NCBI RefSeq assembly: GCF_002803065.1
Contig: NZ_NNBL01000008.1
Span: 62,001-126,000, forward strand
Origin: Streptomyces sp. CB01635
GTDB lineage: Bacteria > Actinomycetota > Actinomycetes > Streptomycetales > Streptomycetaceae
Direction of reading: 5' to 3'
Length of the DNA: 64,000 nt
The stretch's first letter is position 1. Each line of letters opens with the position of its first letter. Shown piece after piece: positions 48,874 to 64,000 of this stretch. The notes under the pieces were generated by a model. The model searched no databases, was not told the origin of the DNA, and was given only the letters and a program-made list of their open reading frames with translations. Both the position numbers and the translations under genes were made by a program.

Positions 48874-50268
48874 TCAGGCGGAAGCGGGTTTGGGATCGGC
48901 CGCCGCCGAGGCGCCGGCTGCCGAGTCCACCGCCCCGCCTCCTACGCTGTCGTTCCTGCCACCGCCTCGTACGAGAAGGACACTGAGTGCGGCCAGGATT
49001 CCGACCACGGTCAGGCCGACCAGGCCCCCCTTGGTGGAACCCGTCGTGGTCTCCAGGATGCCGAAGGCGGTCGGGGCAACGAAGCCGCCCAGGTTGCCGA
49101 TGGAGTTGATGAGCGCGATGCCCGGGGCAGCGGCGCGGGCGTCCAGGTAGTTCTGCGGAATGGTCCAGAAGATGGGAGAAGCGGGCTTGAAGCCGACCGC
49201 GGCGATGCAGAGGGCGCCGAGGCCGAGCCACGGCGAGACGTAGACGGCGAGGAGTGTGCCGAGGCTGCCGATGAGCAGCAGCGTGATCAGCAGGGGACGG
49301 CGCTTGCCCATGCGGTCGGAGATCCGGCCGGAGACCCAGACGGCGGCGATCGCGAACAGCCAGGGGACGGAGGTGAGGAGGCCGACCTGGAACTCGGAGA
49401 GGTCGCCGACGTCGTCGACGATCGAGGGGAGCCAGAACGTCACCGCGTACAGGGCGACGTTGATCGCGAAGTAGATCCAGAGGAAGAGCAGCATCTGGGG
49501 GTCGGCGAGGAGCTTCCAGCGGGAGACCTTCGCGGTGCCGCGTTTGCTTTCGCGGGCGGCCTGTTCGGCGTCGATCGTGGCTACGAGGCCCTGCTTCTCC
49601 TCGTCGGTGAGCCAGTCGGCGCTCTCGATGCTGTTGTCCAGGAAGCGGTAGACGACGAATCCGAGAGCGACCGAGAAGAGGCCCTCGATGAAGAACATCC
49701 ACTGCCAGCCGGCGTGACCGAGGAGGCCGTGCATCTCCATGAGCGCGCCGGAGATCGGGCCCACGATGACGGTCGCCGTGCCGGAGCCCATGAGGAAGAT
49801 GGAGGTGGCGCGGCCGCGGTGGGAGTCGGGGAGCCAGCGGGAGAAGTAGTAGATGACTGCGGGGAAGAAGCCCGCTTCCGCGACGCCGAGGAGGAAGCGC
49901 AGCGCGTAGAACATCTCGGCACTGTTCACGAAGGCCATGGCGGTGGCCACGACCCCCCAGCTGATCATGATCCGGGTGAGCCAGATCCGCGCACCGAATC
50001 GCTCCATGAGGATGTTGGAGGGCACTTCGAAGATCGCGTAAGCGATGAAGAAGATGCCCGCACCGACACCGAACGCGGCCGCCGACAGACCGGTGTCGGC
50101 GCTCAGTTCGTCCTTGGCGAAGCCGATGTTGACCCGGTCCATGTAGTTCACGACGAACATGATGAAGAACAGCGGTATGACGCGCTTGAAGATCTTCTTG
50201 ATGGCGGACTCGACGGCCGGGGGGTGCTGCACGGCGCCGTTGACGGCGCTCTGGGGTACTGCGGACAC
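48874..50268 (-). CDS. MFS transporter of the ACS family, probably D-glucarate/galactarate permease
   Basis: A 464-residue carrier with 12 helices. Marks of the anion:cation symporter family are FVVNYMDRVNIGFA in helix 1 and the loop motif in ILMERFGARIWLTRI; helix 5 carries RFLLGVAEAGFFPAVIYYFS. The helix 8-9 loop has RISDRMGKRRPLL. GudP and tartrate/phthalate carriers belong here. The gene follows gudD and kdgD in the same direction, which supports import of a hexarate with protons. A hairpin lies between it and gudD, so it may be partly separately expressed. Ala/Asp-rich C-terminal tail. Confidence 0.9.
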   Translation of the reverse strand: MSAVPQSAVNGAVQHPPAVESAIKKIFKRVIPLFFIMFVVNYMDRVNIGFAKDELSADTGLSAAAFGVGAGIFFIAYAIFEVPSNILMERFGARIWLTRIMISWGVVATAMAFVNSAEMFYALRFLLGVAEAGFFPAVIYYFSRWLPDSHRGRATSIFLMGSGTATVIVGPISGALMEMHGLLGHAGWQWMFFIEGLFSVALGFVVYRFLDNSIESADWLTDEEKQGLVATIDAEQAARESKRGTAKVSRWKLLADPQMLLFLWIYFAINVALYAVTFWLPSIVDDVGDLSEFQVGLLTSVPWLFAIAAVWVSGRISDRMGKRRPLLITLLLIGSLGTLLAVYVSPWLGLGALCIAAVGFKPASPIFWTIPQNYLDARAAAPGIALINSIGNLGGFVAPTAFGILETTTGSTKGGLVGLTVVGILAALSVLLVRGGGRNDSVGGGAVDSAAGASAAADPKPASA

Positions 50269-50359
50269 GAGCGGCTCCGATCGTGAATGCGGGGTACGGC
50301 AGGGCGGGAGTCGCCGGGGCCGGGAAGGGGACTCCCGGCGGACAACTCCCGCAACCAGA

Positions 50360-50390
50360 GCCGGGAGTCGGGGACGTGCGAACTCCCGGC
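50360..50390. terminator. Hairpin between gudD and the MFS gene
   Basis: GCCGGGAGT (50360-50368) pairs with ACTCCCGGC (50382-50390) over a 13-base loop. It lies 20 bases beyond the gudD stop and may attenuate transcription into the transporter gene; similar CTCCCGGC units are repeated nearby. Confidence 0.5.
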
Positions 50391-50409
50391 TCCCGTCAGG
50401 AAGTTGGTG

Positions 50410-51702
50410 TCACCAGCGGGGGAAGGCCGGGGTTTCCCAGGCCGGGGCGGCGACGCGCATCGCGGCCGCGTCGTCGCGTTCGCGCATCGTGCCGTCGTCG
50501 TCAAGCCAGCGCTGGTGCAGGACGGCGAGCCTGTCGCGGTCGAGGGTGACGCCGAGGCCCGGGGCGTCGGAGACGGTCACCTTGCCGTCCGTGAAGGTGA
50601 TCCGTTCGTTCAGCACGTCCTCGGACTGCCAGGGGTAGTGCGAGTCGCAGGCGTGGTGCAGGTTCGGGACGGTGGACGCCACGTGTGTCATCGCGGCGAG
50701 CGAGATGCCCAGGTGGGTGTTGGAGTGCATCGACACTCCGACGCCGAAGGTGCGGCAGATGGCGGCGAGTTCGCGGGTGTTGCGCAGGCCGCCCCAGTAA
50801 TGGTGGTCGGACAGGACGACCTGGACGGCGTCGCATGTGAACGCCTCCTTGACCTCGTCGAAGGTCGTCACACACATGTTGGTGGCGAGCGGCACGCCGG
50901 TACGGGCGGCGACGGCGGCCATGTTGGGCGTACCGAGAGTGGGGTCCTCCATGTACTCCAGGACGTCCTGCAACGCCTCGATGACCTTGACGGAGGTCTC
51001 GACGGACCAGGCGCCGTTGGGATCGAGTCGCAGCGGGCTTCCGGGGAACGCCTCGGCGAGGGCACGTATCGCCGCGATCTCCTGCTCGGGCGCGAATACG
51101 CCGCCCTTGAGCTTGAAGGAGCGGAAGCCGTAGCGCTCGGTGAACTTGCGTGCCTGGTCGACGATGCCGGCCGGGTCGACGGCCTCGCCCCAGTCGTCCA
51201 CCTCGGAGTCGACGCCCTTCGGGTGCTCGCCCCACTTGTAGAAGAGGTAGCCGCTGTACTCGACGGTGTCGCGCACCTTGCCGCCGAGCAGGGCGTGAAC
51301 CGGCAGGCCCTGCGCCTTGCCGAGTGCGTCCAGGCAGGCGACCTCGAAGCCGCAGACGACGGACAGCCGCAGCTTGTCGGCGGTCTGGACGCCTCGCAGG
51401 CCACCCACGTCCACCTGGCCCGTCACCCGCTCCTCGGCCACCGCGACCTCGTCCGCGAGGGTGAACAGGCCGTTGAGGTCTGCGACGGACCGGCCGACCA
51501 GCTTCTCGGCGTACGGGCGGGCCAGTTCCAAGTACTTGGTGTCGCCGTAGGTCTCGCCGAGGCCGGTGATCCCGTCCGCTGTCGTGACCTCGATGATCAG
51601 GCGGGGGGTGTACGGCTGGTGCACCCCCTGGGCGTTGAGCAGCGGCGGGTCGGCGACGAGGATCGGGGTCAGCCGGACGTCGGAGATCGTCAGGTCGTTC
51701 AT
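50410..51702 (-). CDS. gudD: Glucarate dehydratase
   Basis: A 430-residue enolase-superfamily enzyme that dehydrates D-glucarate (and L-idarate) to 5-dehydro-4-deoxy-D-glucarate. The capping domain includes GLGETYGDTKYLELARPYAE. Catalytic lysines are in FRSFKLKGG (Lys197, Lys199), metal ligands follow in LRLDPNGAW (Asp227, Asn229) and EYMEDP (Glu252), and the second base is in SMHSNTHLGIS (His330). Length and motifs match GudD throughout. The stop of kdgD does not separate the genes: gudD starts after a four-base overlap with it, in the order kdgD, gudD, transporter. Confidence 0.95.
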   Translation of the reverse strand: MNDLTISDVRLTPILVADPPLLNAQGVHQPYTPRLIIEVTTADGITGLGETYGDTKYLELARPYAEKLVGRSVADLNGLFTLADEVAVAEERVTGQVDVGGLRGVQTADKLRLSVVCGFEVACLDALGKAQGLPVHALLGGKVRDTVEYSGYLFYKWGEHPKGVDSEVDDWGEAVDPAGIVDQARKFTERYGFRSFKLKGGVFAPEQEIAAIRALAEAFPGSPLRLDPNGAWSVETSVKVIEALQDVLEYMEDPTLGTPNMAAVAARTGVPLATNMCVTTFDEVKEAFTCDAVQVVLSDHHYWGGLRNTRELAAICRTFGVGVSMHSNTHLGISLAAMTHVASTVPNLHHACDSHYPWQSEDVLNERITFTDGKVTVSDAPGLGVTLDRDRLAVLHQRWLDDDGTMRERDDAAAMRVAAPAWETPAFPRW

Positions 51703-52646
51703 CGGGCGGCTCCAACGAGGTTCAGGCCGGTGGTGAGCAGTGTTTCGAGGTCGGCGAGGTCTGAGGGGGTCGGGTCGGTGAGGGGCGCACGGACCGGTCC
51801 GACCGGGCGGCCGCGCAGCCGGGCCGCCGCCTTGACCAGGGACACCGCATACCCGGGCCGCCGGTCGCGCAGCTCCACGAAGGGCACGTAGAAGTCGGCG
51901 AGCAGCGTGTCGACGCGGCTGTCGTCACCTGCCGACAGGGCCTGGAAGAAGGCGTTGGCGATCTCCGGGGCGAAGGCGTGGACAGCCGAGGAGTACGCAG
52001 GGATGCCGACCGTCGCATAGGCGCGGGCCTGGAGCTCGGCTGTCGGGGCGCCGTTGAAGAAGAGGAAGCCGTCGGGGGCGGCGAGGGTGCTGCGCTGGAG
52101 CCGGTCGAGGTCGCTGTGTCCGTCCTTGAGGCCGATGACGCCGGGGATCGCGGCGATCCGGCGCACGGTCTCCGCGTCGTACGTCACGTGGTCACGCTGG
52201 TAGGCGATGAGTGGCAGCCGGGTGCGGTCGGCGATCCGGTGGAGTTGCTCGACCAGCCCGTCCTGCGGGGCCTTGTTGAGGTAGTGCGGCAGGACGAGGA
52301 GCGCGTCGGCTCCGGCGTCCTCGGCGATACGGGCGAAGCGCAGTGCCTGGGCGTAGCCGTAGCCGGTACCGGCCACGACCGGGACGCGGCCCGCCGTCAC
52401 CTCCACGGCGGTCGCGACGACCTGGCCGTACTCGTCCTCGTCGAGCGCGCTGAACTCCCCCGTGCCGCAGGCCGGAAAGAGCGCGCCGGGGTTCGTCTCC
52501 AGTTGCCCGGCGAGATAGCTGCGAAAGCCGTCGAGGTCGAGCGATCCGTCGGCCTGGAAGCTGGTGAGCGGGAACGACAGCACGCCCTGGGCCATGCCGT
52601 CGCGCAGCCGCGCCGCAGTGCCGGCGAGGGGGGTCCGAGTCACCAT
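51699..52646 (-). CDS. kdgD: 5-dehydro-4-deoxyglucarate dehydratase
   Basis: A 315-residue member of the DHDPS/NAL class I aldolase family. The Schiff-base lysine is in GVIGLKDGHSDL (Lys174), the active-site tyrosine in PLIAYQRDHV (Tyr149) and the carboxylate-binding loop is ACGTGEFSAL. It dehydrates and decarboxylates the GudD product to 2-oxoglutarate semialdehyde. ATG 52646 follows GGAGA; upstream codons lack family similarity. It is first in the operon, facing the IclR gene. The 2-oxoglutarate semialdehyde dehydrogenase that completes the route is not in the window. Confidence 0.94.
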   Translation of the reverse strand: MVTRTPLAGTAARLRDGMAQGVLSFPLTSFQADGSLDLDGFRSYLAGQLETNPGALFPACGTGEFSALDEDEYGQVVATAVEVTAGRVPVVAGTGYGYAQALRFARIAEDAGADALLVLPHYLNKAPQDGLVEQLHRIADRTRLPLIAYQRDHVTYDAETVRRIAAIPGVIGLKDGHSDLDRLQRSTLAAPDGFLFFNGAPTAELQARAYATVGIPAYSSAVHAFAPEIANAFFQALSAGDDSRVDTLLADFYVPFVELRDRRPGYAVSLVKAAARLRGRPVGPVRAPLTDPTPSDLADLETLLTTGLNLVGAAR

Positions 52647-52789
52647 GCTGTCTCCGTATGTAGATGACGTTCGCACATGGGGATGGACAGTAGGCTCGGG
52701 AAACCACCCCGTCAATGGGTTCGAGCAAGGGATTCGGCATCAAGTGCAGGCGGGGACACGCAGGTCGGGACGGTACGTACGATCGACCC
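52647..52789. promoter_or_regulatory. Divergent promoter region of the glucarate operon and its IclR regulator
   Basis: The 143 bases between kdgD and the regulator gene. TACGAT lies a few bases before the regulator ATG, which has no ribosome site, so this transcript may be leaderless. An IclR operator is expected here but I could not define one. Confidence 0.45.
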
Positions 52790-53611
52790 ATGTCCGAATC
52801 TGTTGAGCCCGTGGCCCGGCCGTCCGAGTCCGGCGTGCGCGAGGTGAAGTCGGCCGCTCGCACGGTCGAACTGCTCGAACTCCTCGCCGACCGCGGCGAC
52901 CGGCCCGCCCGGCTGCAGGAACTCGCCGCCGAGTTGGGCGTCCCGCGCAGCTCCATGTACGCGCTGCTGCAGACCCTGATCGCACGCGGCTGGGTGCGCA
53001 CCGACGCCACCGGATCGCTCTACGGAATCGGCCTGCGCACATTGCTCACCGGCACCACCTATCTGGACACGGACCCCGTGGTCCGCGTGGTGCGCCCGTA
53101 CCTGGACGACGCCTCGGAGCAACTCGGCGAGACCATCCATCTGGCCCGCCTCGACGGCATGGACATCGCCTATCTCGCGACCCGCGAGTCGCACGAGTAT
53201 CTGCGCACCATCAGCCGAGTGGGGCGCTGGCTTCCCGCTCACGCGGGCGCACTCGGCAAGGCGCTACTGGCCGAACACCCGGACGCGGCGCTGCCCGACG
53301 CGCCGTACGAGGCACTGACGCCACGCACCCACACCACCCTGGCCGCGCTCGTCGCCGACCTCGCACAGGTCCGTGCCCGCGGCTACTCGATCGACCGTGA
53401 GGAGGGCGTCACCGGCATCGTCGGATTCGGCTTCGCGCTGCGCGTGAACGGCGAAGCGCCGGCGCACGACGCGATCAGCTGCTCGGTGCCGGTGGCACGG
53501 CTCACCGAGGAGCGCGAGCGGCGGATTGTGACCGTGATGCAGAAGGTGCGCGAGGAGATCGAGGCAAGACTGGCTCAGGGCACGGGCGCGGGCGGGGTCG
53601 ACTGGCGCTGA
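52790..53611 (+). CDS. IclR-family regulator of glucarate catabolism
   Basis: A 273-residue regulator from ATG 52790. The N-terminal winged helix contains RTVELLELLADRGDRPARLQ and AAELGVPRSSMYALLQTLIA; the effector domain shows ETIHLARLDGMDIAYLATRE, HAGALGKALLAEHP and EEGVTGIVGFGFALR. The family's DNA helix usually reads GLPKSTVHRLL, close to what is seen. Divergence from kdgD suggests that it represses or activates the hexarate operon in response to a pathway intermediate. Confidence 0.93.
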   Translation: MSESVEPVARPSESGVREVKSAARTVELLELLADRGDRPARLQELAAELGVPRSSMYALLQTLIARGWVRTDATGSLYGIGLRTLLTGTTYLDTDPVVRVVRPYLDDASEQLGETIHLARLDGMDIAYLATRESHEYLRTISRVGRWLPAHAGALGKALLAEHPDAALPDAPYEALTPRTHTTLAALVADLAQVRARGYSIDREEGVTGIVGFGFALRVNGEAPAHDAISCSVPVARLTEERERRIVTVMQKVREEIEARLAQGTGAGGVDWR

Positions 53612-54097
53612 GCCCCCGGTCTCGACGAGCGCTTCGGAGGTTCGCGGGCTGTTCTTCACCGTCGCCCGATTTCACTCGCCCGGCCCGCCCGCTGGGAGCA
53701 GGCTGCGGCCGCGTCACCAATCCGCCCCGCAGTCCGCGTTCAGCCCGGGGACCTCCTCCCCCGAGCGGCCGGAATGGCCTCGTCCTCGTCCCCGCTCGCC
53801 CGCGACGCGCAGCGGGTAGCCGAACCCGAGACCGTGTCCGACCGGGAAGCACCCTGATGTTCACCGGCGATTCGATCACCGACTACCCGCGGCTGGAGAG
53901 CGGGCCATGGTGTCGGTGGCATATCAGAGATTGTCGGTCCGATGTCGGTGGGAGCCGGCACCTTTCGAGAGGTCCAGCCGGGGGCCGTCCATCCGGCTGA
54001 CCCACACCCGTGTCTACGAGGGACTGCGTCCCCGGGCAACCTCCTGCCCAAATGCCTTTCCCACGCAGGCTGTTGCCTCCGATTGCCCTGTGCGAGG
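53612..54097. other. Stretch with a hydrolase relic
   Basis: No intact gene. At 53857-53910 the phrase MFTGDSITDYPRLESGPW is the start of an SGNH/GDSL hydrolase (GDSIT block with its serine); the rest of that gene is missing. Confidence 0.5.
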
Positions 54098-55153
54098 ATG
54101 ATCGCTTCTTTCACGGGGCGGCCGAAGGGGCGGAAGTTGAAGCGGAGATCGCTGTTGCGAGCAGTGGTGACCACTGGACTGACGGCGGCAAGCGGCGCGG
54201 CCACAGTGCGGTCAGCGGCCGCCGCCACGGACTACCTGATCGTTGTCGTCGAACAGGCCGCCAACCAGATCCAGCGCTTCAGCAACGGCACGACCGACTG
54301 GAACGGCTCCCCCGAGTGGTACTGGAGCGCGCCGAGCACGGATACCTGGAAGTATCTGGCCGACGCCAAACGCCGGCTCACGGCCAACTGGGACGACGTC
54401 CTGGTGTGCTGCGCGAACGGCACAGCGAGTACGGGTGGACGCGCCGCCATGGTCCGCGAGAGTGACAAGGCAGTCGTCTGGACGGCGGTCGTGCCGGGCA
54501 ATCCTCACTCGGTCGAGCGGATCGACGGACACGGCGCGATCGTCACCGCCTCCGCCAAGCAGAGGGCCACCGGCGACAACTACGAGGCTGGCGGCGGCAT
54601 CAACCTTTTCGTACCCACCAGTCACGGCGGCCTGCCGCCGACCTCGTTCGCCGACACCATCAGCACCGGTTTCCCCGGTGCCCACGGCGTGCTGTGGGAC
54701 GACGCCAACGAATGCCTGCTGGCAATCGGCGACAACGAGCTGCGCGCCTACCGCCTGGTGACGAACAGCAGCGGCATCATCACCGGCCTCTCACAGGTGT
54801 CGACGCTGGCCTTCAGCGGCACGGGGCACGACCTGCAGCCGGACTACGCCTCCTCCGACATCCTGTACACCGTGGGCGGCGACGCCGGCAATCCCGACCA
54901 CGGGATATGGAAGACCCGTCTCATATACAACAACGCCACCGGTACGTGGTCCTTCGCCGCTCCGGCCAGGCTGTACGACTGGTACTTCACGAAGTCCTTC
55001 AGCAGGCTCCCCGACGGGACGGAATTCTGGGTCGACGCCACCAGCGCGGCGACCTGGTGGAACGACACGGTCGGCTTCTCCGGCCGGGCCGATTCGGTCC
55101 GATCCGGAGCAAAGTTCTACAAGGCTCGCTTCTGGTCCCACGTCCTCTCTTGA
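54098..55153 (+). CDS. Tat-exported protein, possibly DUF6528 beta-propeller
   Basis: About 351 residues from ATG 54098; a TTG at 54137 just before the twin arginines is an alternative. The signal is KRRSLLRAVVTTGLTAASGA followed by AAAATDY, a twin-arginine type. The mature part is rich in Trp, Gly, Asp and Asn in repeated strands (QAANQIQRFSNGTTDWNGSP, DDVLVCCANGTASTGGRAAM, FPGAHGVLWDDANECLLAIG, TGHDLQPDYASSDILYTVGG). This resembles a beta-propeller of the DUF6528 type. Secreted, soluble, cysteine-poor. A role in extracellular binding or polymer handling is only inferred from its form. Confidence 0.75.
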   Translation: MIASFTGRPKGRKLKRRSLLRAVVTTGLTAASGAATVRSAAAATDYLIVVVEQAANQIQRFSNGTTDWNGSPEWYWSAPSTDTWKYLADAKRRLTANWDDVLVCCANGTASTGGRAAMVRESDKAVVWTAVVPGNPHSVERIDGHGAIVTASAKQRATGDNYEAGGGINLFVPTSHGGLPPTSFADTISTGFPGAHGVLWDDANECLLAIGDNELRAYRLVTNSSGIITGLSQVSTLAFSGTGHDLQPDYASSDILYTVGGDAGNPDHGIWKTRLIYNNATGTWSFAAPARLYDWYFTKSFSRLPDGTEFWVDATSAATWWNDTVGFSGRADSVRSGAKFYKARFWSHVLS

Positions 55154-55469
55154 ACCGAACCGTCTGCAGCGGTTCTTGAACCGTCTGCAACGGTGAACTC
55201 GACGGCCAAGAGAACGCCGCGCTCGCCCTTTCGCTCCTTTTCACGTGCGGGTACACGGATGCCCCGGGCGCTCGATCGGCCCGAGCCGGCGCACGCGTCC
55301 TCGCCGCTCGTCGCCATGTCGGCCTGGCAGGGCGCCATCTCCAGTACGCAGGCGCACAGGAGATGTTCACGAGTACGAAGGGCGCACCATGTTCTGGCAG
55401 CCCCAGCGGGCTACCTCAACCACGCCTTCCTTTCGGATCACTCTTCCGAGCGCGCCACAGGTTCCCGCG
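55154..55469. other. Gene-free stretch
   Basis: It contains a direct repeat GAACCGTCTGCA...GAACCGTCTGCA just after the previous stop (near 55155-55190) and otherwise no recognisable gene. Confidence 0.4.
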
Positions 55470-55625
55470 ATGACTGAACTCGGCGCCGTCGCCTGGCCAC
55501 CTGTCCCGATCAGGACCGAACGGCTCGTGCTCCGCGAGTCCGAGGCCCGGGGCCGTGCGGCGTTCATCGTGCTGTTCACCTCGCCGGAAGGTGGGCACCT
55601 ACCTGGGCGGCCCTCGACCGCGTGA
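55470..55625 (+). pseudogene. GNAT acetyltransferase, N-terminal fragment
   Basis: WPPVPIRTERLVLRESEARG and RAAFIVLFTSPE are the first strand and helix of a RimJ/RimL-type GNAT. One frame further, VGTYLGGPRPRD would continue it, so a shift lies near 55595. The acetyl-CoA site is missing. Confidence 0.6.
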
Positions 55626-55669
55626 TGTTCCGGGTCCGTCACGCACCTGCGTGACGGACCCGGAACATC
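55624..55669. terminator. Perfect 22-bp inverted repeat with 2-base loop
   Basis: Arms 55624-55645 and 55648-55669 are exact complements (GATGTTCCGGGTCCGTCACG... and reverse). It closes the preceding region and insulates the permease promoter. Confidence 0.75.
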
Positions 55670-55802
55670 CCCCATCGTCATGCCGGCCTACAGCACCTGA
55701 CAGAACGCGACTTCCCGCCTATGAGCGGCATCCCGCCACGGAGAGGAGTCACTAACGGAGCGGACACGGCGGTGACACCCGGCAGAAACGGGTGGTCCCT
55801 AA

Positions 55803-55822
55803 TTTCTGTCGCACGACAGGAA
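55803..55822. promoter_or_regulatory. Probable TetR operator at the permease gene
   Basis: TTTCTGTCGCACGACAGGAA, with arms around a central CA, matches the perfect palindrome at 58255-58274 at all but one outer position. It lies 36 bases before the permease ATG. Confidence 0.75.
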
Positions 55823-55858
55823 CTCCGCAGGATCACGCCTCCGCGACAGGGGACCGCC

Positions 55859-57430
55859 ATGACCGTGACCACCGACTCCACCACACCACCTCCCCCTCCG
55901 TCGGCCGGCGTCACGGACGACGGCACGCTGGCCACCTTCGGCTACCGCCAGGAGCTGCGGCGGCAGATGGGGCGGTACGCGTCCTTCGCCGCCGGGTTCT
56001 CCTTCATCTCCGTCCTGACCACGGTCTTCCAGTTCTTCTCCCTGGGCTACTCCTTCGGCGGGCCGCTGTTCCTGTGGACCTGGCCCGCCGTGCTCATCGG
56101 CCAACTGCTGGTCGCCGCGTGCTTCGCCGAACTCGCCGCCCGTTACCCCATCTCCGGGGCGATCTTCCAGTGGTCGACCCGGCTGAGCCGCCCGGCCTTC
56201 GGCTGGTTCACAGGCTGGATCATGGTGATCGGTCAGGTGGTCGTGGTCGCCGCCGCGGCACTCGCACTGCAGGTCGTTCTGCCCCCGATCTGGTCCGGAT
56301 TCCAGCTCGTCGGCGGCGACCCGGCGCCCACCACAGCGACCGGGGCGGCCAACGCCGCCCTTCTGGCTCTCGTCCTGCTGGCGCTGACCACGGCCGTCAA
56401 CGTGCTCGACAACCGCGTCATGTCGGCCGTCAACCGGATCGGCGTCACCGCCGAGATCATCGGCGCGATCCTCATCGTCGTACTGCTGTTCACCCACGTC
56501 GAGCGCGGTGCCGGAGTGGCCCTGAAGACGGGCGGCCAGGACGGCACGGTGGCGGCGCTGCTGGTGGGCTCGTTCACCGCGGCATACGTCCTCATCGGCT
56601 TCGACAGTGCGGGCGAGATGAGTGAGGAGACCCGTAACCCACGTCGCACCGCTCCCCGCACCATCCTCAGCGCCCTCGCCACGGCGGGTGCCCTGGGCGG
56701 CCTGCTGCTGCTCGGCGGTCTCCTCGCAGCACCCAGCCTCTCCGACGGCCACCTCGCCACCGAGGGGTTGAGCTACGTACTCACCAGCAGTCTGGGCGAC
56801 GGGGTGGGCAAGGTCCTTCTCGCGGACGTGGCGGTGGCCGTCTCCGTGGCCACGCTCGCCATCCAGACCGCCGGAAGCCGGATGCTCTTCTCGATGGCGC
56901 GCGACGGGATGCTTCCCTTCTCCGCACGGCTGGCGAAGGTGTCGCCGCGCACGGGCATGCCCTTCGTCCCGGCGCTGGTGGTGGGCGGGCTGGCCGCGGC
57001 GCTCGCGCTGCTCAACCTTGCCTCCCCGGAGGCGTTCGTGGCCATCGGCACCACGTGCATCGCGATGCTGTATCTCGCGTACCTCGGGGTGACTGCGCCG
57101 ATGCTGCTCCGCCGGCTCAAGGGCCAGTGGCCCACGACGGATTCCGGGGACCGTGACGAGCTGGGCAGGCCACTGTTCTCCCTCGGCCGCTGGGGTCTGC
57201 CCGTCAACGCGCTCGCGGTCGTCTACGGGCTGTTCATGACGGTCAATCTGTCCTGGCCTCGCGCGCAGGTGTACGACCCGGCAGGGGGCCACTGGTACTT
57301 CCAGTGGTTCACCGTCCTGTTCGTCGGCGCCACAGTGGCCGCCGGTGCGGTGTACCGGAGCCGCGCAGGAGTTGCCCCAGCGGCCAAGGGTCCTGGACGC
57401 AAGGAGCCGGCCGAGGCCGTACGTATCTGA
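55859..57430 (+). CDS. APC-superfamily permease of the urea/guanidine locus
   Basis: A 523-residue permease from ATG 55859 with 12 helices. Marks are the N-terminal LATFGYRQELRRQMGRYASF, the unwound first helix region FAAGFSFISVLTTVFQFFSL, and the loop AARYPISGAIFQWSTRLSRP, plus FDSAGEMSEETRNPRRTAPR in the conserved E-T-x-N-P-R position. This is the amino-acid/choline transporter subgroup that accompanies urea-carboxylase genes and in other bacteria imports guanidine or related cations. The TetR operator in front couples it to the catabolic genes across the divergently placed regulator gene. Confidence 0.9.
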   Translation: MTVTTDSTTPPPPPSAGVTDDGTLATFGYRQELRRQMGRYASFAAGFSFISVLTTVFQFFSLGYSFGGPLFLWTWPAVLIGQLLVAACFAELAARYPISGAIFQWSTRLSRPAFGWFTGWIMVIGQVVVVAAAALALQVVLPPIWSGFQLVGGDPAPTTATGAANAALLALVLLALTTAVNVLDNRVMSAVNRIGVTAEIIGAILIVVLLFTHVERGAGVALKTGGQDGTVAALLVGSFTAAYVLIGFDSAGEMSEETRNPRRTAPRTILSALATAGALGGLLLLGGLLAAPSLSDGHLATEGLSYVLTSSLGDGVGKVLLADVAVAVSVATLAIQTAGSRMLFSMARDGMLPFSARLAKVSPRTGMPFVPALVVGGLAAALALLNLASPEAFVAIGTTCIAMLYLAYLGVTAPMLLRRLKGQWPTTDSGDRDELGRPLFSLGRWGLPVNALAVVYGLFMTVNLSWPRAQVYDPAGGHWYFQWFTVLFVGATVAAGAVYRSRAGVAPAAKGPGRKEPAEAVRI

Positions 57431-57457
57431 GCGGTCACACGCCCGGCCGCGTCGTCA

Positions 57458-58141
57458 TCACTGCGCCGCGAGGAGCTGTTGCCCCTCGCGGCGCAGCCGT
57501 GCCAGGGAGCGCTGCGGCACCCCCGCAATCCGCAGTGCCGCGTCGGCCGTCGCCACTGCGAGGGCCGACGCGTCGCGGGCGGGGTCGGCACGCCGGATGA
57601 GGATCACGCTTTCGGTGAGGCCGAAGAGGAGGTCTGTTCGGAGCGCCAGCTCCTCGACGCCGAGCGCCGCGCCGGGCTCCGTGCCCGACAGCAACTCCCC
57701 GTAGGACGCCTTCAGTTCGGTTCGTACCTGGTGGAAGACGCCAAATCGTTCCGTCTGCACCTCGGGCTGAAGGTACAGGGCCCCGAGGTTGTGCGGGCCA
57801 CGGCACAGCAGCGTGACGTCGGAGTGGCACAGGGCCCACAGCCTCGCCTCGGCGGCTGTTCCTGTACGGGCCACCAGGTCGCGGGCGATTTCCAGCGAGG
57901 GGCGGACGGTCCCTTCGAGCAGTGCCGCGAGGATCGCTTCCTTGCCGTCGAAGTAGTGGTAGAGCGACGCCTGTCGCAGGCCGGCCCGCTCGGCGACCGC
58001 CCGGGTGGAGGTCGCGGTGTAGCCGTGCGTGGTGAACAGCTCGGCCGCGGCGGCCAGAACCTCTTCGCGCGGCTCCAGCCCGCTGGCGGGACGCTCCTGG
58101 GCGCGCGGGCGGCCGACTTTTCTGGTGGTGGGCGGGCTCAC
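57458..58141 (-). CDS. TetR/AcrR-family regulator
   Basis: A 227-residue regulator. The N-terminal HTH is EEVLAAAAELFTTHGYTATS and TRAVAERAGLRQASLYHYFD, followed by KEAILAALLEGTV. The C-terminal helices (ALYLQPEVQTERFGVFHQVR, TDLLFGLTESVILI) form the ligand and dimer domain. GTG 58141 is the only start available and lies directly on GGAG. It sits between the permease and the DUF1989 gene on the opposite strand. The two shared palindromes flank its gene, so it probably represses both flanking operons and itself until the nitrogen compound or a derivative is present. Confidence 0.92.
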   Translation of the reverse strand: MSPPTTRKVGRPRAQERPASGLEPREEVLAAAAELFTTHGYTATSTRAVAERAGLRQASLYHYFDGKEAILAALLEGTVRPSLEIARDLVARTGTAAEARLWALCHSDVTLLCRGPHNLGALYLQPEVQTERFGVFHQVRTELKASYGELLSGTEPGAALGVEELALRTDLLFGLTESVILIRRADPARDASALAVATADAALRIAGVPQRSLARLRREGQQLLAAQ

Positions 58142-58254
58142 TCCGTGATCCTCGCACAGGCCCGCGAGATCCCCGCGGGCCGAGCTGCCGAAGTGAGATG
58201 CCGGTTACCGCGCCGAAATGCCCGGGCAATGGCCCCGACTTGGCCTGAGCCTAA

Positions 58255-58274
58255 TTTCTGTCGCACGACAGAAA
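58255..58274. promoter_or_regulatory. Perfect palindromic operator of the carboxylase operon
   Basis: TTTCTGTCGCACGACAGAAA consists of 9-base arms around CA. It lies between the TetR GTG (58141) and the DUF1989 GTG (58299), 24 bases before the latter, and can serve both promoters. Confidence 0.82.
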
Positions 58275-58298
58275 TAGCGTCGAGCCGGAGGTTCAACC

Positions 58299-59141
58299 GT
58301 GGCGACAGCTTCAGAGACAGCGTCGGCCTATGGTGCCCGCGATCACGCCCGCGCCCAGGACGGCACACAGTGCGACACCATGCCCGTACTCCCGGCGAGC
58401 AGTTGGCCGACGCCCCCCGAGGGCATCGCCGCCGAGGATCTCGTGTGGGCCGAGACCGTGGCAGGCGGCAACTACACCCATAAGGTCCTGGCCCGTGGCA
58501 CCGAGTTGCGCCTGACCGACCTCACCGGCGACGCGTGTGCACACGTCCTGCTGTACAGCGCCGACCGCCCCTGGGAGCGGCTGAACGCGGCCGACACGGT
58601 CAAGGTGTTCTGGAACGCCTACCTCGGCGAGGGACATCTGCTCCTGTCCGACCAGGGCCGGGTTCTCGCCTCCGTCACCGAGGACGCCTCCGGCCGGCAC
58701 GACGCCCTCAGCGGCACCTCCGCCCTCGTCCGCAACACCGAACGGTACGGGGACGGAACTCCCCAATCGGCCACCCCGGCCGGACGTGAGCTGTTCAAAC
58801 TCGCCGCCCTCAAGAACGGCCTCGGCCCGCGGGACATCCCGCCGTCCGTCTCCTTCTTCCAGGGCGTACGGGTCAGCGAGGACGGCACCGCCTGCTTCAC
58901 CGGCTCCGCGGGAGCCGGCACGTCCGTCACGCTGCGCGCCGAGCAACCGCTGACCGTACTCATCGCCAACGTCCCCCACCCACTGGACCCGCGGCCCGCG
59001 TACATCTGCGGACCGCTTGAGGTCCTCGCGTACCGGGCCGCACCGACCGCCCCCGGCGACGCACTGTGGGACGCCACGCCGGAGGGCCGCCGTGCCTTCC
59101 TCAACACCGCCGAGCACCTCAACGCCAGGGGGATCGCATGA
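58299..59141 (+). CDS. DUF1989 protein, urea-carboxylase-associated protein 1 (carboxyguanidine deiminase subunit-like)
   Basis: A 280-residue protein from GTG 58299 behind GGAGG. The DUF1989 body is seen in GTELRLTDLTGDACAHVLLY, VFWNAYLGEGHLLLSDQGRV, PPSVSFFQGVRVSEDG and CGPLEVLAYRA. These proteins were first named from their neighbourhood to urea carboxylase (UAAP1). In guanidine-degrading bacteria the two DUF1989 subunits form carboxyguanidine deiminase, which releases ammonia to give allophanate. Its stop overlaps the next ATG, so subunits 1 and 2 are made together. The His-Cys metal pattern in RHDALSG and ICGPLEV fits the family. Confidence 0.92.
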   Translation: MATASETASAYGARDHARAQDGTQCDTMPVLPASSWPTPPEGIAAEDLVWAETVAGGNYTHKVLARGTELRLTDLTGDACAHVLLYSADRPWERLNAADTVKVFWNAYLGEGHLLLSDQGRVLASVTEDASGRHDALSGTSALVRNTERYGDGTPQSATPAGRELFKLAALKNGLGPRDIPPSVSFFQGVRVSEDGTACFTGSAGAGTSVTLRAEQPLTVLIANVPHPLDPRPAYICGPLEVLAYRAAPTAPGDALWDATPEGRRAFLNTAEHLNARGIA

Positions 59142-59776
59142 CCGTCACCACCGCCCCTGCGGGCCACGTCGTCTGCGACCGGACCGTCCCCGCCTGCTCC
59201 GCCTGGTCCGCCGTCGTACGCACGGGTCAGCTGCTGACCATCACCGACCTGTACGGGAACCAGGCCGCGGACTTCCTCGTCTACGACGCCCATGACACCT
59301 CCGTGCGCTACAGCGCCCCCGACACCATCCAGGCCCAGGGCAACATCTTCCTGACCACCGGCTCGTTGCTGCTGTCCAACGAGCACACCCCGCTGATGAC
59401 CGTCGTCGAGGACACCTGCGGTCGGCACGACACCGTGGGCGGCGCCTGCTCCAAGGAGTCCAACACCCTCCGCTACGGACACCACACCTGGTCTCAGCAC
59501 GCCTGCGTGGAGAACTTCCTCGCCGAGGGCAGCAAGCACGGACTGGACAAGCGCGATCTGGTCTCCAACATCAACTGGTACATGAACGTGCCGGTCGAGA
59601 CGGACGGCACCCTCGGCATCGTCGACGGCATCTCGGCCCCGGGCCTCAAAGTCGTACTACGCGCCGAGACCGACGTCATCGCGCTGCTGTCCAACTGCCC
59701 GCAGATCAACAACCCCTGCAACGGATTCCACCCGAGCGCCCTGCAGACGACGATCACCGAGCCGGACGAGAGCTGA
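59138..59776 (+). CDS. DUF1989 protein, urea-carboxylase-associated protein 2 (carboxyguanidine deiminase subunit-like)
   Basis: A 212-residue partner of the preceding protein. Blocks are LLTITDLYGNQAADFLVYDA, RYSAPDTIQAQGNIFLTTGS, VVEDTCGRHDTVGGACSKES and NINWYMNVPVETDGTLGIVD, ending with CPQINNPCNGFHPSALQTTI. The cysteines in TCGRHD and GGACS and the terminal NPCN block are the metal/catalytic marks. ATG 59138 overlaps the previous stop. Six bases separate it from the carboxylase gene. Confidence 0.93.
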   Translation: MTVTTAPAGHVVCDRTVPACSAWSAVVRTGQLLTITDLYGNQAADFLVYDAHDTSVRYSAPDTIQAQGNIFLTTGSLLLSNEHTPLMTVVEDTCGRHDTVGGACSKESNTLRYGHHTWSQHACVENFLAEGSKHGLDKRDLVSNINWYMNVPVETDGTLGIVDGISAPGLKVVLRAETDVIALLSNCPQINNPCNGFHPSALQTTITEPDES

Positions 59777-59781
59777 AACCC

Positions 59782-62700
59782 ATGACGTTCGACACCCTTC
59801 TGGTCGCCAACCGTGGCGAGATCGCGTCGCGCATCATCCGCACCGCTCGCCGGATCGGTCTGCGCACCGTCGCGGTCTACTCCGACCCGGACCGCGGCGC
59901 CGAGCACGTTCGGCTGGCCGACGAGGCCGTACGGCTCGGCCCGGCCCCTGCCAAGGACTCGTACCTCGACGCCGCTTTGATCCTGAAGGCCGCCAAGGAC
60001 ACCGGAGCCGGCGCCGTCCACCCCGGCTACGGATTCCTGTCCGAGGACGCCGGCTTCGCCCGCAGCTGCGCCGAAGCGGGTCTGGTCTTCGTCGGCCCCA
60101 CCCCCGTACAGCTGGAGCTGTTCGGCGCCAAGCACACCGCGCGCGCCGCCGCTCATGCGGCGGGTGTGCCGCTCGCCCCGGGCACCGGGCTGCTGCCCGA
60201 CTTGGACACCGCCCTCGCGGCGGCCGAGGGAATCGGCTACCCGGTCATGCTCAAGGCGACCGGCGGGGGCGGCGGTATCGGCATGCAGGGGTGCCACGAC
60301 GCGGACGCCCTCGAAGACGCCTGGGAGCGGGTGCAGCGCGTGGCCGCCGCCTCCTTCTCCTCCGCCGGCGTCTTCCTGGAACGGCTCGTCGAGCGCGCCC
60401 GCCACGTCGAGGTGCAGGTCTTCGGCGACGGCGAGGGCCGCGTCGTCACCCTCGGCGACCGCGACTGCTCGCTGCAGCGCCGCAACCAGAAGGTCCTGGA
60501 GGAGGCCCCCGCCCCGGATCTCCCGGACGCGGTACGCAAGCAATTGACCTCCTCGGCACGGGACTTGTGCGCGTCCGTGAACTACCGGTCCGCCGGCACG
60601 GTCGAGTTCGTGTACGACGCCGCCCGCGAGGAGGCGTACTTCCTCGAGGTCAACACCCGCCTCCAGGTCGAACATCCGGTCACCGAGGAGATCTACGGCG
60701 TCGACCTCGTGGAGTGGATGCTGCGCCTCGCGCAGGGCGACACCACGGTCGCCGGCGTGCCTTTGACACCGAGGGGCCACGCCGTCGAGGCACGCATCTA
60801 CGCCGAGGACCCCTCCCGCGACCACCGGCCGAGCGCGGGCCTGCTGACCCGCGTCGCCTTCCCCGAGGGCGTCCGCGTCGACACCTGGGTGGAGACCGGC
60901 ACCGAGGTCACCACCTCCTACGACCCGATGCTCGCCAAGGTCGTCGCGCACGGCAGCGACCGCGCCGAGGCGCTCGACAGGCTGGACGCAGCCCTCGCCG
61001 CGACCCGCCTCGACGGCATCGAGACCAACCTCGGCCTGGTGCGCGCCGCGCTCCAGGACGCCGACGTGCGCCAAGCGGCCCACTCCACCGCTTCGCTCGC
61101 CACCATCAGCGACCCGACGCCGCGCATCGAGATCGTCACTCCCGGCACCTTGACCACCGTGCAGGACTGGCCCGGACGCACCGGCCACTGGCAGGTCGGC
61201 GTCCCCCCGTGCGGACCGATGGACGACCTCTCCTTCCGGCTCGGCAACACCGCGCTCGGCAACACCGAGGGCGCACCCGGCCTCGAGTGCACCCTGCAGG
61301 GCCCGTCCCTCCGCTTCACCCACCCGACGACGGTGTGCGTCACCGGCGCCCCCGCACCGGTGACGATCGACGGCATCGCCGTACCGCAGTGGGAACCGGT
61401 CACCGTCGAAGCCGGGCAGACCCTGGCCGTCGGGTCACCCGACGAGCACGGCCTGCGCACCTACGTGCTGTTCGCCGGCGGCCTGGACATACCGGAGTTC
61501 CTGGGCAGCTCGGCCACCTTCGCCCTCGGCCGGTTCGGCGGACACGGCGGCCGCGCCCTGCGCGCGGGCGACGTCCTGCACGGCGGCGAGCAGCGCCCGG
61601 ATACCTCCGTCGTGGCCCTCGACCGGCGCCCGGCCTTCGCCGGCGCGTGGTACATCGGCGCGGTCGAAGGCCCGCACGCCGCCCCCGAGTTCTTCACCGA
61701 CGACGACATCCGCGACTTCTACGCCGCGGACTGGAAGGTGCACTTCAACTCGGCGCGCACCGGTGTGCGCCTCGTCGGCCCCAGGCCGCGGTGGGCGCGC
61801 ACGGACGGTGGCGAGGCGGGCCTGCACCCGTCCAACATCCACGACACCCCGTACTCCGTCGGCGCCGTCGACTACACCGGCGACATGCCCGTCCTGCTCG
61901 GCCCCGACGGGCCCTCCCTGGGCGGCTTCGTCTGCCCGGCGACGATCGTGACCGGACAGCGCTGGAAACTCGGCCAGCTCCGTCCGGGCGATACAGTCCG
62001 CTTCGTCCCGGTGACCACCGAGGCCGCCGCCGGGCTGCGGCGGAACCCGGCAGCGGCCCCGCGCGCCGATCGGGAGGCCGTCGTCGACGGCGGCATCCTC
62101 GCCCGCCTGCCACGGACCGAAACCCGCCCGTCGGTCACCTACCGGCGCAGCGGCGACGACAACCTCCTCATCGAATACGGACCGATGCAGCTCGACCTGG
62201 CCCTGCGCATGCGGATCCACGCACTCGCGCAGGCGCTGGCCGGGCAGCGGCTCGACGGCGTCGAGGACCTGACTCCGGGCATCCGCTCCCTCCAGGTCCG
62301 GACAGATCCCGACGTCCTGCCTCAGGAGAAGCTCCTCGACATCGCCCGGCGTGTTGAGGAGGAACTCCCCGCCCCCGACGAGCTGGTGGTTCCCAGCCGA
62401 ATCGTCCACCTGCCGCTGTCCTGGGACGACCCGGCGACCCGCGAGGCCATCGCCCGCTACATGGCGGGCGTGCGCGACGACGCCCCGTGGTGTCCCTGGA
62501 ACATCGAGTTCATCCGCCGCGTCAACGGCCTGGAGACCGTGGAGGACGTGTACCGCACCGTCTTCGATGCCGAGTACCTGGTGATGGGGCTGGGAGACGT
62601 GTACCTGGGCGCACCCGTCGCCACCCCCCTGGACCCGCGGCACCGGCTGGTCACGACCAAGTACAACCCGGCCCGTACCTGGACCGCGGAGAACTCGGTC

Positions 62701-63369
62701 GGCATCGGCGGCGCCTACCTGTGCGTCTACGGCATGGAGGGCCCGGGCGGCTACCAGTTCGTCGGCCGCACCACACAGGTGTGGTCGGGCTGGCAGCAGC
62801 GCGGCGCCTTCGAGCCGGGCAGGCCCTGGCTGCTGCGCTTCTTCGACCGGATCAGGTGGTACCCGGTCGAGGCGGAGGAACTCCTGGAACTGCGCGCGGA
62901 CATCACGTCCGGCCGGTTCGTACCGAGAGTCGAGGAGGGTTCCTTCTCACTCGCCGAGTACCAGCGGTTCCTCGCCGAGAACGCGGAGTCGATCGCCGAG
63001 TTCCGGGCCGGGCAGAGCGCGGCGTTCCGCGCGGAGCGCGACGCCTGGGAAGCGGCCGGCGAGTTCACCCGCGAGCAGGCGGCCACCGAGGCCGCCCCAC
63101 AGCCCACCGACGTCAGTGTCCCCGAGGGCGGCCACCTGGTCGAAGCCGAGTTCACCGCCTCCGTCTGGCAGGTCAACGTCGAGGTCGGCGACCGTGTGTC
63201 GGCCGGGCAGCCGCTCCTCGCGCTGGAAGCGATGAAAATGGAGTCCCGGGTGCCGGCCCCCGCCGACGGTATCGTCACGAAGATCCTGACCAAGCCGGGC
63301 AGCCAGGTCGAGGCGGGCACCGCCCTCGTCGTCCTCGCTCCCGTCGAAACCGTGGAGGCAGCCGCGTGA
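59782..63369 (+). CDS. Biotin-dependent urea/guanidine carboxylase
   Basis: A single-chain carboxylase of 1195 residues. Order of domains: biotin carboxylase (about 1-445) with LLVANRGEIASRIIRTARRI, the ATP-binding loop KATGGGGGIGMQGC and EVNTRLQVEHPVTEEIYGVD; an AHS2/KipA-like part (about 450-750, TPGTLTTVQDWPGRTGHWQV); an AHS1/KipI-like part (about 800-1010, YGPMQLDLALRMRIHALAQA, then PLSWDDPATREAIARYMAGV); the substrate block HRLVTTKYNPARTWTAENSV and GGAYLCVYGMEGPGGYQFVG; and a C-terminal biotin carrier with LLALEAMKMESRV. It carboxylates urea to allophanate or guanidine to carboxyguanidine. The two DUF1989 genes upstream favour guanidine. Confidence 0.95.
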   Translation: MTFDTLLVANRGEIASRIIRTARRIGLRTVAVYSDPDRGAEHVRLADEAVRLGPAPAKDSYLDAALILKAAKDTGAGAVHPGYGFLSEDAGFARSCAEAGLVFVGPTPVQLELFGAKHTARAAAHAAGVPLAPGTGLLPDLDTALAAAEGIGYPVMLKATGGGGGIGMQGCHDADALEDAWERVQRVAAASFSSAGVFLERLVERARHVEVQVFGDGEGRVVTLGDRDCSLQRRNQKVLEEAPAPDLPDAVRKQLTSSARDLCASVNYRSAGTVEFVYDAAREEAYFLEVNTRLQVEHPVTEEIYGVDLVEWMLRLAQGDTTVAGVPLTPRGHAVEARIYAEDPSRDHRPSAGLLTRVAFPEGVRVDTWVETGTEVTTSYDPMLAKVVAHGSDRAEALDRLDAALAATRLDGIETNLGLVRAALQDADVRQAAHSTASLATISDPTPRIEIVTPGTLTTVQDWPGRTGHWQVGVPPCGPMDDLSFRLGNTALGNTEGAPGLECTLQGPSLRFTHPTTVCVTGAPAPVTIDGIAVPQWEPVTVEAGQTLAVGSPDEHGLRTYVLFAGGLDIPEFLGSSATFALGRFGGHGGRALRAGDVLHGGEQRPDTSVVALDRRPAFAGAWYIGAVEGPHAAPEFFTDDDIRDFYAADWKVHFNSARTGVRLVGPRPRWARTDGGEAGLHPSNIHDTPYSVGAVDYTGDMPVLLGPDGPSLGGFVCPATIVTGQRWKLGQLRPGDTVRFVPVTTEAAAGLRRNPAAAPRADREAVVDGGILARLPRTETRPSVTYRRSGDDNLLIEYGPMQLDLALRMRIHALAQALAGQRLDGVEDLTPGIRSLQVRTDPDVLPQEKLLDIARRVEEELPAPDELVVPSRIVHLPLSWDDPATREAIARYMAGVRDDAPWCPWNIEFIRRVNGLETVEDVYRTVFDAEYLVMGLGDVYLGAPVATPLDPRHRLVTTKYNPARTWTAENSVGIGGAYLCVYGMEGPGGYQFVGRTTQVWSGWQQRGAFEPGRPWLLRFFDRIRWYPVEAEELLELRADITSGRFVPRVEEGSFSLAEYQRFLAENAESIAEFRAGQSAAFRAERDAWEAAGEFTREQAATEAAPQPTDVSVPEGGHLVEAEFTASVWQVNVEVGDRVSAGQPLLALEAMKMESRVPAPADGIVTKILTKPGSQVEAGTALVVLAPVETVEAAA

Positions 63370-64000
63370 TCACCGCAGTGGAACGGGTACGGGCGGCCTA
63401 CACACGCATCGCGCAGGTGGACCGGCCCGAGGTGTGGATCGGCCTGCGCCCGCAGGCCGATACGGAGTCGGACGCCGCCGCGGTCGACGCGAAGGTCGCC
63501 GCCGGTGACCGGCTGCCGCTGGCCGGGACGGTGCTCGCGGTCAAGGGCAACATCGACGTGGCCGGACTGCCGACCACCGCCGGCTGTCCCGCCTACGCCT
63601 ACGAGCCCGACACCGATGCGCCGGCCGTGGCCCGTCTGAAAGCTGCGGGCGCCGTGGTCCTCGGCACCACGAACCTCGACCAGTTCGCGACCGGCCTGGT
63701 CGGCACCCGCAGCCCGTACGGCGCGGTCCGCAACGCCCTCGCCCCGGAACACGTATCCGGCGGTTCCTCGTCCGGCTCGGCGGTCGCTGTCGCGCTCGGC
63801 ATCGCCGACATCGCGCTCGGCACGGACACCGCGGGCTCGGGCCGTGTCCCGGCGGCGTTCAACGGCATCGTCGGTCTCAAGCCGACCTTCGGACTGATCC
63901 CGACCGAGGGCCTCGTCCCGGCCTGTGCCTCGCTCGACTGCGTCACGGTCTTCGGCCGCACGCTCCCGGAAGCCGAGCAGGCGCTGTCCCTCATGTCAGC
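63366..64000 (+). CDS. Allophanate hydrolase, amidase domain (partial at window end)
   Basis: GTG 63366 overlaps the carboxylase stop. The 211 visible residues are the first half of an amidase-signature domain: LAVKGNIDVAGLPTTAGCPA with the catalytic lysine, HVSGGSSSGSAVAVALGIAD with the cis-serine, and DTAGSGRVPAAFNGIVGLKP with the nucleophilic serine region. Allophanate hydrolase (AtzF/DUR2 type) cleaves allophanate to two ammonia and two carbon dioxide and closes the pathway. The gene runs off the window, so the small C-terminal domain cannot be judged. Confidence 0.94.
   Translation, partial: MITAVERVRAAYTRIAQVDRPEVWIGLRPQADTESDAAAVDAKVAAGDRLPLAGTVLAVKGNIDVAGLPTTAGCPAYAYEPDTDAPAVARLKAAGAVVLGTTNLDQFATGLVGTRSPYGAVRNALAPEHVSGGSSSGSAVAVALGIADIALGTDTAGSGRVPAAFNGIVGLKPTFGLIPTEGLVPACASLDCVTVFGRTLPEAEQALSLMS

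Follow-up and report, generated by a model that had tools for sequence, protein, structure and literature searches.

The DNA analysed here, a 64,000-nucleotide stretch of the Streptomyces sp. CB01635 genome referred to below as the window, almost certainly carries a two-operator AmtR regulon in which a permease gene and a carboxylase operon would be controlled by one repressor. We propose that this operon serves the degradation of guanidine, and we put the probability of the regulon and the guanidine pathway, taken together, at roughly 0.85. A sequence-only reading had already connected one TetR protein and two operators with the permease gene and the carboxylase operon. This connection was strongly supported, as both sites were found to be kept in Streptomyces and the operator core across Actinomycetes. 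The same reading proposed that a protein senses the nitrogen compound, and the likely compound can be narrowed to guanidine or a product of it; assignment of the regulator to the AmtR family, the GlnR boxes and the guanidine pathway go beyond that reading. The regulatory device itself is of a known kind. New here are the assignment of the pathway in this setting, a definition of how operators and promoters are built, and the effector hypothesis.

A pattern search located an exact copy of TTTCTGTCGCACGACAGAAA at positions 58255–58274 and a copy with one mismatch, TTTCTGTCGCACGACAGGAA, at 55803–55822, where shuffled sequences gave an expectation of 0.00 in the window. The distances to the start codons were confirmed, with 24 bases between the perfect copy and the GTG codon of the UAAP1 gene (58299) and 36 bases between the weaker copy and the ATG codon of the permease gene (55859). 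The TetR gene (57458–58141, minus strand) is flanked by the two copies, each of them upstream of a start codon. The palindrome is built of two 9-base arms around a 2-base centre, the arms of the perfect copy extending to 10 bases, and the weaker copy is marked by a G at position 18 (GGAA right arm). When the whole genome (10,064,235 bases) was scanned for TTTCTGTCGNNCGACAGAAA, just two places matched with at most one mismatch; the next-best matches were two sites with three mismatches each, near the control count of one. Further targets of the regulator were sought across the same genome and none was found above chance. A separate near-perfect inverted repeat with arms of about 22 bases (GATGTTCCGGGTCCGTCACGCA...) lies at 55624–55669, upstream of the permease promoter, and is probably a terminator.

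Conservation of the two predicted operators was read from 46 operon-bearing loci in a sample of 199 Streptomyces genomes, about 60 of which encode relatives of the TetR protein (at least 57% identity) and 52 of which encode UAAP1 above the family cut-off. The operator before UAAP1 was present in 46/46 loci with 15 of its 20 positions invariant; variation is confined to positions 6, 9, 10, 11 and 15, with no constraint on the two central bases. Ahead of the permease gene, the weaker copy was found in 31 loci, mostly as TTTCTGTCRNNCGACAGGAA and with G at position 18 in nearly all, and it was retained even where the permease gene sits 6–9 kb from the regulator gene. Retention of the palindrome in orthologous loci that keep the regulator, a check named along with the sequence-only reading, was hence observed. 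The accompanying expectation that the palindrome should lie near the TetR gene held for the window, where the perfect copy stands 114 bases upstream of that gene, but the linkage is not general: the distance grows to about 560 bases in one locus (L113) and to about 1,030 bases in another (L117). The conserved partners of the operators are UAAP1 and the permease gene, rather than the TetR gene. Five genomes showed another gene order, with permease, UAAP1, UAAP2, carboxylase, hydrolase and TetR genes all on one strand and a TetR protein about 40–43% identical to that of the window in whole-protein comparison. These loci hold a single operator, close to TACCTGTCRNNYGACAGGTA, before the permease gene and none before UAAP1, which indicates that operator number tracks transcript number. 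When six operon-bearing genomes were scanned with at most one mismatch allowed, the system's own two sites were the only matches; ten Streptomyces genomes that do not have the system gave no site with fewer than two mismatches.

The 114-base spacing, together with the autoregulation of M. smegmatis AmtR (PMC4222082), could also be read as the sign of a purely autoregulatory site, the permease copy being a decayed duplicate. We regard this as barely credible, since the permease copy has a typical asymmetry of its own that is kept in 31 loci, and where the permease gene is relocated the copy goes with it. In one genome (G370), moreover, the only close copy of the regulator gene lies about 1.15 Mb from the operon, beside a helicase gene, with the two operators intact, which implies that the regulator can act in trans. 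Thirteen Streptomyces genomes (L065–L077; for example G012 and G085) encode a close AmtR relative, 59–65% identical, and have neither the guanidine operon nor an exact palindrome; the AmtR protein can therefore have another role, and the palindrome was rejected as a general trait of AmtR relatives. We had considered these regulators as paralogues, an option that was dropped when they were found to nest within the Streptomyces AmtR group in the tree. Where their surroundings were inspected, the genes of these regulators often adjoined helicase and tatC genes. The sole close AmtR copy of G370 adjoins the same kind of helicase gene with the operon kept, and on the basis of this case and the tree nesting they are better termed relocated or orphan AmtR proteins.

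Sequence, fold and tree agree in placing the 227-residue TetR protein of the window in the AmtR family. Its only Pfam match is PF00440, the helix-turn-helix (HTH) domain. Its best sequence relative in the PDB is M. smegmatis AmtR (5e57; E-value 2e-38 over residues 21–208), to which it is 47% identical; the top PDB matches are all AmtR proteins, from M. smegmatis or C. glutamicum, and the next family follows at an E-value of 3.5e-12. An AlphaFold model of the protein (pLDDT 92.7) was submitted to Foldseek, and ranks 1–14 were all AmtR chains, with query-normalised TM-scores of 0.70–0.83 and the next match at an E-value of 3e-6. Four TetR proteins adjoining UAAP1 in one group of loci, family f4 (L183, L197, L201 and L208), are 68–74% identical to M. 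smegmatis AmtR. C. glutamicum AmtR contacts its DNA through the HTH residues Thr42, Gln53, Ser55, Tyr57 and His59 (PMC2723105). After mapping of this numbering in our analysis, the Thr, Gln and Tyr contacts were invariant and the third contact was either Ser or Thr; the HTH segment reads RQASLYHYF in the window protein and RQASLYHHF in M. smegmatis AmtR. The operator has a matching layout: the C. glutamicum AmtR box is tttCTATN6AtAGat/aA (PMC2723105), and the general form CTRT-N6-AYAG appears in Streptomyces as CTGT-N6-ACAG and in other actinomycetes as mixed forms, including CTAT/ACAG, plus one CTAT-N6-ATAG. In the ligand domain, residues D108, N118, Y123 and E177 are strictly conserved and E127 nearly so; as a guess from this conservation, these five are candidate effector-site residues, and the orphan relatives too keep most of them.

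The genes under the two operators point to guanidine. The carboxylase operon, encoded on the plus strand, opens with two DUF1989 genes, UAAP1 (58299–59141; TIGR03425, 307 bits with a cut-off of 206) and UAAP2 (59138–59776; TIGR03424, 318 bits with a cut-off of 285). Their products are the predicted subunits of a two-subunit carboxyguanidine deiminase, a function assigned to UAAP1 from its family and from PMC11410670. There follow a gene annotated as urea carboxylase (59782–63369; TIGR02712, 1858 bits), which we assign to a biotin-dependent guanidine carboxylase, and an allophanate hydrolase gene (63366–64000; TIGR02713 on the in-window part), whose full open reading frame of 559 amino acids continues past the window edge and ends at 65045 on the contig. 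The APC-family permease gene (55859–57430, plus strand; PF13520) scored 643.8 bits with TIGR03428, a family named ‘permease, urea carboxylase system’, which is below the cut-off of 740; its product is a probable guanidine importer.

Guanidine carboxylases differ from urea carboxylases by an Asp where the K. lactis enzyme has Asn1330, together with Asp1584 (PMC11410670); the Asn at K. lactis position 1330 was read from the alignment made in this analysis. In the window carboxylase, Asp697 aligns to Asn1330 and Asp939 to Asp1584. For calibration, Asp was found in all of six plasmid operons that combine guanidine-I riboswitches with UAAP genes, and Asn in a Klebsiella carboxylase adjoining urea transporters, without UAAP genes. 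The Asp/Asp signature was found in 70/70 readable AmtR-type loci. The Asp/Asn rule is not universal, as the discriminating position is occupied by Met in four actinomycete carboxylases without AmtR (L184, L185, L187 and L198), three of them under guanidine-I riboswitches. The family names and the M. smegmatis literature would instead make this a urea operon, with urea as both substrate and repressor signal. We consider that very improbable, given that the discriminating residue is Asp and not Asn, that UAAP1 and UAAP2, which occur alongside guanidine riboswitches, are required for guanidine and not for urea, and that urea at 0.5–5 mM failed to release M. smegmatis AmtR (PMC4222082). Guanidine degradation is the pathway that the operon is very likely to serve, judging from its gene content and the signature residues, and for the 70 actinomycete loci in which the two signature residues are readable, guanidine carboxylase would replace the name ‘urea carboxylase’.

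Two variants of these gene sets were noted on the way. Most carboxylases of family f4 (L183, L186, L192, L194, L197, L201, L202, L206 and L208) align only from about residue 443, and their biotin-carboxylase half seems to be detached or to come from another gene; at L208, a separate stretch resembling a biotin carboxylase lies close by. Two loci (L191 and L199, in genomes G304 and G380) hold UAAP1, UAAP2 and allophanate hydrolase genes without an adjoining carboxylase, AmtR operator or guanidine-I riboswitch, and perhaps represent another route to carboxyguanidine-like substrates.

In both promoters, GlnR-type boxes stand in tandem upstream of the operator, with fixed spacing. GlnR binds gTnAc-n6-GaAAc in 11-bp repeats, with t/gTAAC-n6-Gc/aAAC as the M. 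smegmatis form (PMC10704036). Tandem GlnR-like boxes with 11-bp repeats are present on the plus strand of the window in the permease promoter (GACAC-n6-GACAC-n6-GAAAC, 55763–55789) and in the UAAP1 promoter (GTTAC-n6-GAAAT-n6-GCAAT-n6-GACTT, 58204–58241). A -10-like TAATTT overlaps each operator on the same strand, at 55800–55805 for the permease gene, with TAA kept in at least 97% of loci, and at 58252–58257 for UAAP1, with TAA invariant in 46/46 loci. A box of the strict form GNNAC-n6-GNAAY was found at exactly -51 from the operator start in 45 of the 46 UAAP1 promoters and another at -40 in 33, and a search with this pattern of the same 46 promoters gave zero boxes at offsets other than -51 and -40. 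Looser GNNAY-n6-GNNAY boxes stand at -40 and -29 from the operator in 30 of 31 permease promoters. Overall, the GlnR-type boxes of UAAP1 promoters keep a phase of -51/-40/-29/-18 relative to the operator, and those of permease promoters one of -40/-29/-18. This arrangement of boxes, operator and -10 element suggests an activator upstream and a repressor on the start region, and the control logic is likely to be GlnR activation under nitrogen limitation plus AmtR repression.

A different function for the repressor is suggested by C. glutamicum, where GlnK-driven release, not small-molecule release, is the established AmtR mechanism (PMC4617892). The window protein, as a member of the AmtR family, could likewise report general nitrogen status, with modified PII protein GlnK stripping AmtR from its operators and no pathway compound being sensed. 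We judge this unlikely. The regulon here is local, with two sites in 10 Mb, and not global, and the GlnR boxes already feed nitrogen status into both promoters, so that an AmtR reporting status only would be redundant. M. smegmatis does not need PII to respond to nitrogen at the level of transcription (PMC4617892), and the amtR gene of that species is autoregulated independently of nitrogen (PMC4222082).

We then compared the AmtR-type loci with guanidine-sensing RNAs. A guanidine riboswitch ahead of the operon was searched for as an alternative sensor and was absent: no guanidine aptamer of any Rfam class was detected upstream of the operon within 54000–64000 even at an E-value of 10, and no Rfam family came near its threshold in that interval. 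Guanidine-I riboswitches were found in 0/199 sampled Streptomyces genomes under strict filters, and guanidine-III was above its cut-off in 84/101. The window's own genome has a guanidine-III riboswitch directly before an SMR exporter gene (L305:1699–1759; G000:C34:106198–106258), from which it follows that guanidine is a compound this cell meets. For export, the cell is thus expected to sense guanidine through RNA; for use, we propose that it does so through AmtR.

Beyond Streptomyces, a sample of 346 Actinomycetes genomes yielded 25 non-Streptomyces loci in which UAAP1 and UAAP2 occur with the carboxylase. Of the 25, 20 encode AmtR on the spot and carry a core operator at the promoter of the operon or of amtR; 18 of these core operators have at most one mismatch and two have two, compared with 13 of 10,000 shuffled windows in the control. 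In one further locus the permease gene is preceded by a one-mismatch core, and an AmtR relative is encoded elsewhere in that genome; three are adjoined by a guanidine-I riboswitch, and one, on a short contig, has neither AmtR nor riboswitch. In the last four, no operator was found at the operon, nor was a close AmtR relative encoded in the genome. Two additional loci with UAAP genes and hydrolase but without carboxylase showed no site within one mismatch. AmtR with its operator and the guanidine-I riboswitch never occurred together at one operon in this sample, a mutual exclusion that is clear but based on three riboswitch loci.

These results can be set against known systems. Jessberger et al. 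(2013) describe, for ten actinobacteria with S. avermitilis among them, amtR together with this gene set, and they report binding of M. smegmatis AmtR to the msmeg_2184 upstream region with repression of the genes; GlnR was required for nitrogen control of the orthologous M. smegmatis genes, and urea and amino acids gave no release when tried as effectors (PMC4222082). The M. smegmatis system is like ours in the AmtR family (MSMEG_4300, PDB 5e57; the 47% identity given above), in a small repressed regulon, msmeg_2184–2189, comprising permease, urf1, urf2, carboxylase and amidase genes, and in GlnR as activator (PMC4222082). It differs in that amtR is unlinked, the pathway was taken as urea and the effector was not found; the Streptomyces system as described here adds the two operators, the GlnR-box phase and the defined conservation. 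Guanidine is absent from the effectors reported as tried on M. smegmatis AmtR (PMC4222082). The S. avermitilis cluster sav6697–sav6709, given there as a co-occurrence of amtR (sav6701, in the opposite direction) with a urea-carboxylase cluster, is evidently the same system, with the permease gene further away than here; the available part of PMC4222082 gives no operator or ligand for Streptomyces. C. glutamicum AmtR resembles the window protein in family, fold, N6 half-site spacing, T-rich flank and HTH contacts (Thr, Gln, Ser, Tyr), but recognises CTAT half-sites where Streptomyces has CTGT and controls at least 35 genes compared with a local, two-site regulon; GlnK input is a feature of the C. 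glutamicum protein. Operons under guanidine-I/II riboswitches in Pantoea, Rhizobium, Burkholderia, Acinetobacter and Niallia share UAAP1–UAAP2–carboxylase, the Asp/Asp signature and, mostly, an adjoining allophanate hydrolase, and they use an RNA sensor and in several cases ABC importers, whereas the window has the AmtR protein, DNA operators and an APC permease. A literature search, to which subscription papers were mostly inaccessible, returned no paper linking AmtR with guanidine.

Combining these observations, we envisage that a dimer of the AmtR-family protein would occupy the two palindromic operators overlapping the -10 regions and block both promoters, one leading to the APC permease gene and the other to UAAP1–UAAP2–carboxylase–allophanate hydrolase. 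When nitrogen is short, GlnR bound to the tandem boxes just upstream would activate both. Accumulation of guanidine or a product of it, such as carboxyguanidine or allophanate, would release AmtR, allowing import of guanidine and its breakdown to ammonia, and the perfect operator at the enzyme genes compared with the weaker, asymmetric one at the permease gene could cause the permease to be de-repressed first or more easily. Computation shows the two sites and how they are conserved, the family of the regulator, the phased GlnR-type boxes and the residues of the guanidine-carboxylase signature; binding in this species, the action of GlnR, the effector and the order of de-repression are the steps that we infer. 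For the effector being guanidine or a product of it, we see about even odds. The reading of the operon as a guanidine operon would explain the failure of urea as an effector of M. smegmatis AmtR (PMC4222082) and points to candidate compounds.

The results suggest that, in the soil bacteria studied here, a protein exerts the control that falls to a guanidine-sensing RNA in most other bacteria. The wider proposal, for which the chances appear evenly balanced, is that the AmtR proteins of guanidine operons are guanidine-, carboxyguanidine- or allophanate-sensing transcription factors, the protein counterpart of the guanidine riboswitch, and that the two interchange across Actinomycetes ahead of one and the same catabolic pathway. 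If true, guanidine would be the effector of mycobacterial AmtR, and corynebacterial AmtR would have been recruited to its global nitrogen role later. This is a possible case of a single ligand problem with an RNA solution in some lineages and a protein solution in others. Elsewhere in the window, positions 48877–53608 encode an MFS transporter, an enolase-superfamily dehydratase related to glucarate dehydratase, a DapA-type-aldolase-like protein (51699–52715) and an IclR regulator, a cluster that probably specifies a sugar-acid pathway.
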